A DNA stretch of 64,000 nucleotides from Pararoseomonas sp. SCSIO 73927 (lineage in GTDB: Bacteria; Pseudomonadota; Alphaproteobacteria; Acetobacterales; Acetobacteraceae). The translations under genes and the position numbers were made by a program. The stretch spans positions 4,744,001 to 4,808,000 of the forward strand of contig NZ_CP146232.1 of the NCBI RefSeq assembly GCF_037040815.1, read 5' to 3'. How positions within the stretch are numbered: the stretch's first letter is position 1; the number at the start of each line of letters is the position of its first letter. This document shows, piece after piece, positions 10,059 through 16,660 of the stretch. Below the pieces are notes generated by a model. The model made no database searches. It was given only the letters and a program-made list of their open reading frames with translations, and was not told the origin of the DNA.

Positions 10059-10883
10059 ATGCCTTGGCAGGAAGCCTGTTCCGACGTCCGCGATACGCTG
10101 AGCTTCGATCCTGCCATCCATGATGTGGTTCCCCTCTCGCTGATTTCCGATGACGTCGTCCGGAGCCCGGCGGAGCGGCGGGCGGCGGGAAATAACGGCA
10201 GCGCCGAGGTCGCGGTACGACTCCTGGACGGCTCAGGCCGCCCGATGGCCAGCCTCGTCGTCCGCGAGGGGGCGCCCTACAGCTTCACGGGCCTGCAGCC
10301 CGGCGCCTACCAGATCGAGACCGCCCGCCTCGACGGCCGGCCGGCCGCTGGCGGTCGCAGCGCCCCGTTCACCCTCGCTTCCGGCGGCACGGTGACCAGC
10401 CGGGCCTCGACGATCGACACCCCCGGCACCGTCATCGGCTCCGTCGTCCTGGCGGGCGCCGGAGAAGCGGCTCCGGAGGGAGCCACCGTGCAGTTGCTGA
10501 GCGCGGCCGGGACGAAGGTTGCCGCCACCGCCGCGGGTCCGGGCGGGGCCTACGCCTTCGCCGGCATCCCGCCCGGCCGGTACCGCGTCGAGTTTGCCGC
10601 CCCGGAGCGGGACCTGGAGGCCGTGGCGGCGCCCACCGCCCACTTCGACGTGGTCGAGGCCGCGCCGCCCGCGAGGCCGGCCGCGCCCGCGCCGGTGCGA
10701 CGGATCGGCGCGTCGGAGGAGGAGTTCCTCCTCGCCGCCGCGGGCCATCAGCGGTGGCAGGCCGGGGCTGACGCGCGCCGCGGCGAGACGGGGCTGCCGG
10801 CCGAGAGGGCTCAGCCGCCCAGGATCCGGCGTAGCACCGGGGCGATGAGCTCCGTCGCGGCCGCGCCCACCATCTCTCCGTGA
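10059..10883 (+). CDS. Protein with two carboxypeptidase-regulatory/CnaB-like beta-sandwich repeats
   Basis: A 274-residue protein with two tandem beta-sandwich repeats. Repeat one (about 48-115) contains YSFTGLQPGAYQIETARLDG and repeat two (about 125-195) contains YAFAGIPPGRYRVEFAAPE. The L/IPPGxYxV pattern is typical of carboxypeptidase-regulatory-like and SdrD/CnaB-like domains, often used for adhesion or carbohydrate contact. No signal peptide is visible, which is unusual for this fold. The last 24 codons run antisense into the 3' end of the NRPS gene (10811-10883), so a frameshift or a genuine convergent overlap is possible. It has its own promoter and ribosome site. Role unknown; expression looks likely. 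Confidence 0.6.
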   Translation: MPWQEACSDVRDTLSFDPAIHDVVPLSLISDDVVRSPAERRAAGNNGSAEVAVRLLDGSGRPMASLVVREGAPYSFTGLQPGAYQIETARLDGRPAAGGRSAPFTLASGGTVTSRASTIDTPGTVIGSVVLAGAGEAAPEGATVQLLSAAGTKVAATAAGPGGAYAFAGIPPGRYRVEFAAPERDLEAVAAPTAHFDVVEAAPPARPAAPAPVRRIGASEEEFLLAAAGHQRWQAGADARRGETGLPAERAQPPRIRRSTGAMSSVAAAPTISP

Positions 10884-13800
10884 AGGCAGGGCAGGTCCAC
10901 CACCTCCATCGCCGCCGCGTAGGGCGCCCACATCGCCGGTGACAGCGCGCGGCCGGCGTGGTCGCGCGCCGCGCGGAAATGGGTGATGACGCCGTCGTAG
11001 CGGCGGTGCCGGTGACCGCGCACGAGGCGGTTATTGCCCTCCACCACGCGCACCACGCCGTCCAGCACGGCCTCCGGCAGCCGGCCCAGCGGCGTTCCGC
11101 CGCGGCGCAGGAACGCGATCACGGCGCCGCGCTCCATCGGCAGGTCCGGGTGCTGCGCCGGGTCGTGGCCGGCGATGGCGACGAGGGCGCGGAGCATGGC
11201 ACCCGCATCCGGCTCCGGCTCCGCGCGCCAGGCATCGGCGGGATAGGCGTCCAGCAGCGCGAGCGCGCCGACTTCCCGCCCCATCTCGCGCAGGCGCACC
11301 GCCATCGCCTGGGCGATGATCCCGCCCACCGACCAGCCGGCGAGGTGGATGGGGCCGGGATGCCCGGCCGCGACGACCCGCGCCGCGTAATCGGCGGCGA
11401 GGCCATCCAGGCTGGTGGGCGGCAGGGACCCGGCATCCAGCGAAGGCGCCTGCAGGCCGAGCACGCCGCGCGACGGGGCGAGGGCCCGGGCGAGGTTGCC
11501 GTAGCACCAGGCGATCCCGCCGGCGGGGTGCACGACGAAGAGCGGGGCGCGCGCCTCGTCGCCGCGCCCGAGCCGGATGAGCGGGCGCAGCCCGTCATCC
11601 CCCGGCGGCAGGGAGGCGGCGTCCAGCACGGCGGCGAGCCGGGCGACGCTCGGGTGCTCGAACAGCGCGCCAAGGCCGGGATCGCGGCCGAACTCCCCCT
11701 GCACGCGCAGCATGAGGTCCACGGCGAGGAGGGAGTGGCCGCCGAGGGCGAAGAAGTCCTCCTCCGCGCCCACCGCCGGCAGGTCCAGCACCTCGGCGAA
11801 GAGGGCGGCGAGGCGGCGCTCCGTTTCCGTCTCCGGCGGGCGGCTTTCCCCCTCCCCCATCTCGGGCGGGGGCAGCGCCGCGCGGTCCAGCTTGCCGCTG
11901 GTGTTCACGGGCAGGGAATCCAGCGCGACGAAGGCGGAGGGGACCATGTAGTCCGGCACGCGCGCCGCGACTTGGGCGCGCAGCGCCGCCGCGTCGTGGC
12001 CCGGCCCGGGGACGAGGTAGGCGACGAGGCGCTTGTCGCCGGGCCGGTCCTCCCGCGCGATCACGCGGACCTGCCGCACCGCCGGCCAGGAGGCGATGGC
12101 GGCCTCGATCTCGCCGAGTTCGATCCGGAAGCCGCGCAGCTTTACCTGCCCGTCCACGCGGCCGAGGTAGAGGATGGCGCCGTCCGGGCGGAAGCGCGCG
12201 AGGTCGCCGGTGCGATACATCCTCTCCCCGGGATGGAACGGGTCGGGGATGAAGGCGCGCTCGGTCAGGTCGGGGCGGCCGAGATACCTTTCGGCGAGTT
12301 GCACGCCGGCGATGAAGAGGTGGCCGGTGACGCCGGGGGGCACGGGGCGCAGCGCGTCGTCCAGCACGTAGAGGCGGGTGTTCCAGACCGGGCGGCCGAT
12401 GGGGATGGGGCGGGTCCGGTCCTCCGGCGAGGCGTCCCAGAAGCTGACATCCACCGCCGCCTCGGTCGGGCCGTAGAGGTTGTGCAGCTCCGCGCGCATC
12501 GTCGCGTGGAAGCGGTCGCGGATGTCTGCCGTCAGCTCCTCGCCGGAGCAGAAGACGCGCGCCATCCCCAGCCCGCGCGAGTCCGGGTGCGCGAGGAAGG
12601 CGGCGAGCATGGAGGGGACGAAGTGCGCGGTGGTGATCGCCTCCTCCCGGATCAGTCGGGCGATGGCGGCGGGATCGCGGTGCGCGCCGGGCGGGGCGAG
12701 GACGAGGGTGGCGCCCGCGATCAGCGGCAGGAAGAACTCCCAGACCGAGACGTCGAAGGTAGCGGGGGTCTTCTGCAGGATGCGGTCCCCGGCGGTGAAG
12801 CCGTAGTGCTGCCGCATCCATTCCAGGCGGTTCACGATGGCGCGGTGGCCGATGACCGCGCCCTTCGGCTCGCCGGTGGAGCCGGAGGTGTAGATGGCGT
12901 AGGCCGCGTCCTCCGGCGAGGGACCGGCGGGGGCGGCGCCGTCCTGCGGCCATTCGGAGGGTGCGAGCACGGCCACCTCGGCCGACAAGGCGGCGGGCGC
13001 GAGCGCGATGCGGGGCCCCGCGGAAGCCAGGATGCGGGCCAGCCGCTCCGCCGGGTGCGCGGGGTCCAGCGGCAGGTAGGCGGCGCCGGCGCGCATCGTG
13101 CCGAGGAGGGCGACGACCAGCTCCGGTGAGCGGTCGAGCGAGACGGCGACGAGGTCGCCCGGCCCGATGCCGCGCGCGGCCAGCGCGGCGGCCAGCGCGG
13201 CGCTGCGGCGGTCCAGCTCGCGGTAGCTGATGGACCGACCCTCGAAGCGCAGCGCCGTCGCTTCGGGCCGCGCCCGCATGGAAGCATCGATGAGGGCGAC
13301 GAGAGTGGTTTCGGGAACGGCATGGGCCGTCTCGTTCACCTCGACGACGAAGCGCCGCGCCTCGTCGGGCGTGGCGGTCGGCACGTCGGCGAGGCGCCCG
13401 GCGGCAAGGGCGGCCGTGACGAAGCGCGCGGCCCTGGCCGCGTGCGCCCGTGCCTCCTCCGCCGAGTAGAGGTTCGGGTTCGCCTCCACGTCCAGCCGCA
13501 GCGTCGCGGCGCCGGGATCGGTGCGCAGGTCGAAGGTGATGTCGTCCACCGGGCCGGTGCCGAGCAGGTGCAGCTCCGCCGTCAGGCCGGGGAAGGGCGG
13601 GATCTCGTGGAAGGGCTGGATGTTGACGATGGCGCCATGCAGCCGCCGGCCCGCGCCGAGGCGGCCGAGGTCGCGCCGCAGCTGCTCGCCCCGGTAGCGC
13701 CCGTGGCGGCGCAGGCGGGCGAGCTGCGTCACCGCATCCTCCACCGCCTCGTGCAGCGGCGCCGCCTCGTCGGGGCGGATGCGGAGCGGCAGGACGTTCA

Positions 13801-16576: not shown

Positions 16577-16645
16577 GTCGTCGAGGTCCTGGCATCTCTG
16601 GGCCGGGCGGCCCCGGGCATGGGGGCCGCGATGCCCAGCACTTCT

Positions 16646-16660
16646 TGATAAGCATTCTCA
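16646..16660. promoter_or_regulatory. Fur box upstream of the DHB-AMP ligase operon
   Basis: TGATAAGCATTCTCA matches the 7-1-7 Fur consensus TGATAATnATTATCA at 12 of 14 fixed positions. It lies 70 bases upstream of the ligase start in an otherwise very GC-rich spacer between the esterase and ligase genes. Iron-replete Fur binding here would repress the siderophore assembly genes. Confidence 0.85.

Follow-up and report, generated by a model that had tools for sequence, protein, structure and literature searches.

Does the catechol siderophore locus of Pararoseomonas sp. SCSIO 73927, a member of the Acetobacteraceae, specify a self-sufficient enterobactin-type pathway, and if not, where does its aromatic building block come from? 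The question is raised by a stretch of 64,000 nucleotides of this genome (contig NZ_CP146232.1, positions 4,744,001 to 4,808,000; here called the window), which carries adjoining genes for a 2,3-dihydroxybenzoate (DHB) ligase, a free aryl carrier protein, and an EntF-like synthetase behind a Fur-type box. The three genes, found as the same reduced set in six other genomes of the family, stand in a genome in which EntC, EntB, and EntA were not found. The operon probably specifies an assembly line under iron control that builds a DHB-serine trilactone from DHB not made in the cell by the known route.

The preliminary description of this DNA had placed three coupled genes behind a near-perfect Fur box. 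The coupling was confirmed, with 11 bases between ligase and carrier and an overlap of 8 bases between carrier and synthetase (Table 1). The box matches 12 of the 14 specified bases of a 15-mer that we take to be the Fur consensus. It is the sole match with at most 3 mismatches in the window, where shuffled sequence gave a mean of 0.01, but "near-perfect" was slightly generous.

The synthetase carries the Pfam domains Condensation, AMP-binding, PP-binding, and Thioesterase in that sequence, which is the condensation-adenylation-thiolation-thioesterase (C-A-T-TE) order described earlier. It aligns with EntF (5ja1) over residues 9 to 1287, a span that includes the DVWHFSLVD stretch, and scores 873.3 bits against the EntF equivalog NF007605, below the cutoff of 2400. 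The nine specificity positions compared read DVWHFSLVD, in agreement with the EntF code, as they do in 70 of the 70 synthetases aligned after filtering by length and score; which positions of the adenylation domain set specificity, and that this string is the serine code, are taken here as assumptions. The carrier is a lone PP-binding domain (PF00550, 35.2 bits; cutoff, 20.8) containing the motif DLGLDSMRAM with the presumed phosphopantetheine serine.

The best solved match of the ligase is DhbE (1md9; E value, 7.3e-208). Its score with TIGR02275, 706.2 bits, lies 17 below the equivalog cutoff of 723.55, and its pocket residues are as in DhbE: Ser is kept in HNFPMSSPG and Val in GLVN, where Cys and Leu stand in the salicylate ligase 5wm2. 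The pocket reads HNFSGFV in 90 of 98 aligned ligases and HNYSGFV in 5; the other 3, which are distant, either differ or fail to align. Since no other residues occupy the positions compared in either enzyme of the window, the serine code of the synthetase and the Ser that separates DHB from salicylate ligases, both claimed at the outset, hold. Both pockets are identical between the reduced loci and clusters that include the DHB genes.

The genes for making DHB were sought in the window's genome (5.59 Mb in 4 contigs, 99.3% complete), the scores covering the top candidates of a first look. For EntC, the best match to TIGR00543 reached 165.4 bits, under the cutoff of 224.75, and the gene concerned is TrpE, as judged from a TrpG-kind glutamine amidotransferase two genes downstream of it (names assigned by eye). 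TrpE is also the only protein of the whole genome found with the chorismate-binding family PF00425, which speaks against a salicylate synthase as well. For EntA, the best match to TIGR04316 scored 158.1 bits against a cutoff of 300. Models built from 13 EntB and 11 EntA proteins recovered none in the genome at 1e-20 and 1e-55, respectively, and were positive in all three control genomes with complete clusters. Single candidates were also set aside: of nine isochorismatase-family matches, eight were inspected by eye and none was recovered by the EntB model at 1e-20; the best of 72 short-chain dehydrogenases/reductases was the one scoring 158.1 bits; and the short-chain dehydrogenase/reductase at 53903-54661 is 31 to 32% identical to EntA. 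Beside the seven reduced loci, no remnant of a precursor gene was detected at an E value of 0.01 with queries from complete clusters, which found four of four control loci.

The preliminary description had made its prediction depend on DHB biosynthesis genes elsewhere in the genome; of the known ones, for isochorismate synthase, isochorismatase, and DHB dehydrogenase, none was found, and a self-sufficient enterobactin-type pathway is therefore unsupported. As a separate observation, TIGR00543 gives a single match in this genome (G000) and in G003, G202, G266, G291, G299, and G300, and several relatives show an additional, weaker, PabB-like match, which bears on the p-aminobenzoate route in the group.

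The same division recurs across the family. Among 299 Acetobacteraceae genomes searched, a related ligase occurs in 18, at least 75% identical to that of the window in 14 (its own genome included) and 42 to 46% identical in 4. The nearest ligase, 92% identical, is that of Pararoseomonas indoligenes in a named collection that may omit the genome itself. Inspection of the neighborhoods in the 13 other genomes with ligases of at least 75% identity, and at named loci, distinguished nine Acetobacteraceae with EntC, EntB, and EntA within the cluster from seven loci (the window, L037, L038, L039, L040, L118 in G239, and L120 in G011) that have the ligase, carrier, and synthetase and none of these three in the cluster. 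The contrast extends to whole genomes: EntC scored above the cutoff in nine of nine genomes of the complete type and in none of the seven reduced ones, and EntB with EntA were found in three of three complete-type controls and in none of the seven. Altogether, 47 genomes were searched for EntC, 27 of which had a match above the cutoff; two ligase-free genomes of the window's genus were among those in which EntC was not found. Catechol trilactones had been considered little described in this group of organisms, but since other members of the family carry complete clusters, catechol clusters are not rare in it.

In a tree of 56 of the 98 ligases (short search, no bootstrap), the seven reduced Acetobacteraceae form a single clade (SH-like approximate likelihood ratio test, 96) to which the nine complete ones are sister (support, 99). 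As labeled on this tree, the state changes between reduced and complete at least six times. Genus codes g1 and g16 each hold both cluster types, so the reduced operon does not simply follow genera, and transfer between genera or differential loss is likely. The predicted precursor-less operon is a trait of a lineage, within which ligase identity reaches down to 82%.

Several features point to continued use of the reduced operons. The reading frames run full length in every one of the seven, and none has lost a condensation, carrier, or thioesterase motif; the carrier-domain motif is GGHSL in five synthetases and GGNSL in two. Over the 21 pairs of reduced loci, the ratio of nonsynonymous to synonymous differences per site (pN/pS) was 0.13 to 0.30 for the ligase (median, 0.23), 0.21 to 0.43 for the synthetase (median, 0.33), and 0.08 to 0.53 for the carrier (median, 0.41). 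On these measures, the predicted genes are intact and under purifying selection. Moreover, a Fur-type box with 2 or 3 mismatches lies 68 to 92 bases before the ligase in six of the seven loci and is, in those six, the only one of such quality per locus. Predicted Fur control of the operon is supported by the presence of the box and by its conservation.

Outside the Acetobacteraceae, of 29 genomes that carry a related ligase, 11 have no EntC above the cutoff. Three of these (G312, G314, and G322) were rejected as precursor-free, since EntB and EntA are present. No match to EntC, EntB, or EntA was found in seven: Paracoccus haematequi, Carideicomes alvinocaridis, Sinirhodobacter populi, Saezia sanguinis, Rhodobacter sp. 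SGA-6-6, Salipiger marinus, and Falsigemmobacter faecalis. In Vandammella animalimorsus, EntC and EntB were not found and no synthetase stands beside the ligase. The seven loci retain genes for the ligase, a carrier-type protein, and the synthetase; an esterase relative and a propeller protein like those described below accompany them in the majority, and most also have a periplasmic binding protein and an FecCD permease. The claim of a precursor gap is weaker for these genomes, because the completeness of their assemblies is not shown; they suggest that the precursor-less state arose more than once.

Gene content, box, pockets, intact frames, and the absence of EntC, EntB, and EntA are read directly from the DNA; product, cyclization, export, and DHB acquisition are what we infer from them. 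When iron is low, Fur would leave its box, the ligase would adenylate DHB and load it onto the free carrier protein, and the synthetase would activate serine and couple DHB onto it. The thioesterase domain would gather three such units and cyclize them, and the neighboring transporter of the major facilitator superfamily (MFS) would probably export the product. DHB would enter from outside, as the free acid or through breakdown of imported catecholates. Of the cyclic tri-(DHB-serine) product proposed earlier, the part that stands is that Fur box, ligase, serine code, and C-A-T-TE order point to it once DHB is given; a supply of DHB by the cell itself is not supported.

Several points weigh against this account. 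The genome may hold another DHB route beyond the known enzymes. No catecholate receptor above an equivalog cutoff was found among the six receptors scanned: the gene L178 matches the Fiu model best, with 379.2 bits against a cutoff of 686, and as a Fiu-like receptor gene counts in favor of the account; three others are ferrichrome- or ferrioxamine-like, and two match well to the general model only. The reduced locus L120, in a genome that is 92% complete, gave no Fur box in the locus scan. Finally, the window's genome has a single phosphopantetheinyl transferase match, AcpS-like (G000 C1:4880356-4880640), which is the only candidate found there for priming these carrier proteins. A single match is also seen in six of the nine complete-type genomes and in Stenotrophomonas rhizophila, and the count was therefore rejected as evidence.

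Other explanations of the gap were weighed against supply from outside. DHB might be made in the cell by a route other than EntC-EntB-EntA, for instance from another aromatic acid through hydroxylation, before being used as in enterobactin synthesis. The retention of DHB- and serine-type pockets after loss of the three genes, in an operon still under selection, would fit such a route, and novel chelator biosynthesis is among the options that a survey gives for clusters lacking a chelator pathway (PMC12971057). It is nevertheless unlikely in our judgment, as the neighborhoods offer no recurring DHB-making candidate (all seven share only ligase, carrier, synthetase, and propeller protein), the genomes not having been searched for aromatic hydroxylases. 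That the operon is instead the decaying remnant of a complete cluster, yielding no product, would agree with the loss of the precursor genes from all seven reduced genomes and with the nonfunctional fragments named as a further option in the same survey. The full-length frames and catalytic motifs in seven of seven loci, pN/pS values well below 1, a Fur box kept in six, and the persistence of the operon down to 82% ligase identity make decay improbable.

EntC, EntB, and EntA might instead be present yet hidden by an assembly gap or by strong divergence. There is a precedent of sorts: G312, G314, and G322 have EntB and EntA without an EntC match, which shows that EntC can escape detection in one of these ways, and G011 is 92% complete. 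We hold an oversight to be very improbable here, since it would have to extend to each of the three genes in seven of seven genomes, that of the window being nearly complete in four contigs, and since the remnant search, sensitive enough for every control locus, returned nothing beside the seven. Least credible is a ligase that loads a different acid, for instance salicylate or benzoate, so that the product would not be an enterobactin. A score slightly below the DHB-ligase equivalog cutoff would allow for it, but Ser and Val occupy both of the positions at which DHB and salicylate enzymes differ, complete clusters with EntC, EntB, and EntA have an identical pocket, and a salicylate synthase would itself belong to PF00425, of which TrpE is the only member found. 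An enterobactin-type line fed with DHB from outside is thus the reading that we retain.

Table 1. Predicted features of the siderophore locus and its surroundings, in window coordinates.
Feature	Coordinates	Strand	Basis
YncE-like beta-propeller protein	8620..9825 (start approximate; longest frame 8395-9825)	+	NF052280, 146.8 bits (cutoff, 400)
EntF-like synthetase, C-A-T-TE, code DVWHFSLVD	10811..14680	-	Pfam domains; alignment with EntF 5ja1
Free aryl carrier protein, 87 amino acids	14673..14936	-	PF00550; adjoins ligase in 7/7 reduced loci
DHB-AMP ligase (EntE/DhbE type), first gene of reduced operon	14948..16576	-	TIGR02275; DhbE 1md9; pocket
Fur-type box, ~70-84 bases ahead of ligase start	16646..16660		15-mer match, 2 mismatches
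Secreted-looking esterase related to BesA, PfeE, and IroE	16704..17585	-	Solved-structure matches
TctC/Bug-type binding protein	17582..18553	-	PF03401, 211 bits
M20 amidohydrolase, acyl-amino-acid hydrolase kind	18550..19758	-	TIGR01891, 353.2 bits (cutoff, 153.75)
MFS transporter	19790..21031	-	PF07690, 137.8 bits

Upstream of the operon, genes for the MFS transporter, the M20 enzyme, the TctC-type protein, and the esterase follow one another in this order, the last three overlapping by 4 bases (Table 1). The esterase matches 2qm0 ("BES"; E value, 5.5e-33), the ferric enterobactin esterase 6gi0 (3.4e-25), and IroE 2gzr (3.7e-13); the relationship is one of sequence, and the alignment with BesA spans residues 38 to 204 only. 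The solved structures nearest to the M20 enzyme are YxeP, an IAA-amino acid hydrolase, and an N-acyl-glutamine aminoacylase, and we regard it as a candidate DHB-serine amidase. The only match of the MFS protein to a named siderophore exporter model is weak (BcbE, 24.6 bits); relatives with 45 to 50% identity adjoin the ligase in several complete clusters, for example, L041, L043, L046, and L061, and from this neighborhood a role as siderophore exporter is likely.

Beside the ligase, the MFS and M20 genes occur in five of the seven reduced loci, and the esterase and TctC genes in three each, the three esterase loci all being among those five. The M20 copies adjoining the five clusters, that of the window included, are 78 to 89% identical, and copies of at least 80% identity occur in 3 of the 299 family genomes, all of the reduced type, the next best having 65%. 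A salvage route could be built on these genes, replacing EntC, EntB, and EntA: catechol trilactones from other microbes would be imported and opened by the esterase, the M20 enzyme would cleave the amide of DHB-serine, and the cell would use the DHB so released for a siderophore of its own. The restriction of the close M20 copies to reduced-type genomes and their place beside five clusters favor it, but the M20 gene is absent from two of the seven reduced clusters and the esterase gene from four, and no Fur-type box with at most 3 mismatches lies ahead of the upstream gene run in the window. We therefore put salvage forward tentatively, as a possible source of DHB that is rather doubtful as it stands.

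The propeller protein has relatives in all seven reduced loci (in L038 with 30% identity only) and beside all nine complete Acetobacteraceae clusters; in L038, its gene adjoins that of a TonB-dependent receptor. Other genes of the window were noted in passing. On the plus strand, 10059-10883 encodes an SdrD_B/carboxypeptidase-regulatory-like protein that overlaps the synthetase end by 73 bases on the opposite strand and also occurs in L037. Three adjoining genes at 2571-5314 on the minus strand resemble, by eye, those for synthesis of the lipopolysaccharide sugar KDO. Besides the Pfam-tested gene at 17582-18553, similarity grouping places TctC/Bug-type genes at 26031-26996, 27009-27977, and 29236-30216.

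If DHB is indeed supplied from outside, a whole lineage would invest in a costly siderophore of high affinity and yet rely on others for the aromatic part at its core, a case of precursor dependence in which a candidate enzyme for salvage adjoins the operon. Siderophore production would then be a trait that these communities share, and genome mining that looks for EntC and EntA would overlook such producers; false negatives among clusters of this type are reported in the eLife 2026 survey of metallophore clusters (PMC12971057). Searches of open-licence PMC papers gave nothing direct on a precursor-less line in Roseomonas or its relatives, on catechol siderophores of Roseomonas, or on DHB salvage, and Roseomonas and Acetobacter have no occurrences in the main text of that survey.

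Compared with the enterobactin system of Escherichia coli (entCEBA, entF, fes), the locus likewise has a predicted DHB ligase, an aryl carrier, a C-A-T-TE serine synthetase with the same code, a Fur-type box, and a trilactone-esterase relative nearby. It differs in that EntC, EntB, and EntA were not found in its genome and that the aryl carrier is free instead of fused to the isochorismatase. Also close are the complete clusters of sister Acetobacteraceae (L121-L129; ligases 74 to 78% identical) and of S. rhizophila (L061; 72%), which share the free carrier, the synthetase, and the pockets and, unlike the window, have EntC, EntB (an isochorismatase alone), and EntA in the cluster.

Dependence on a supplied aryl acid is described for equibactin of Streptococcus equi, which requires supplied salicylate (PMC3672683). 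There, as here, no aryl-acid synthase accompanies the siderophore synthetase system in the genome, and the acid must be supplied, as it probably must in the window's strain; as far as that account goes, the salicylate/thiazoline chemistry, the mobile element, and the Gram-positive pathogen that carries it set equibactin apart, with no gene-for-gene relation. Uptake into an enterobactin has been reported for E. coli UTI89, which puts exogenous DHB into all three sites of the molecule (PMC10788543). The same kind of precursor gap as in the window is seen in ten metallophore clusters for which the eLife survey reports that the genome has no chelator pathway; exogenous precursors are one of its three explanations, beside the novel biosynthesis and nonfunctional fragments considered above (PMC12971057). 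The idea of an exogenous precursor is thus already in print; what the present locus contributes is a predicted enterobactin-type line without precursor synthesis that is conserved across a lineage.

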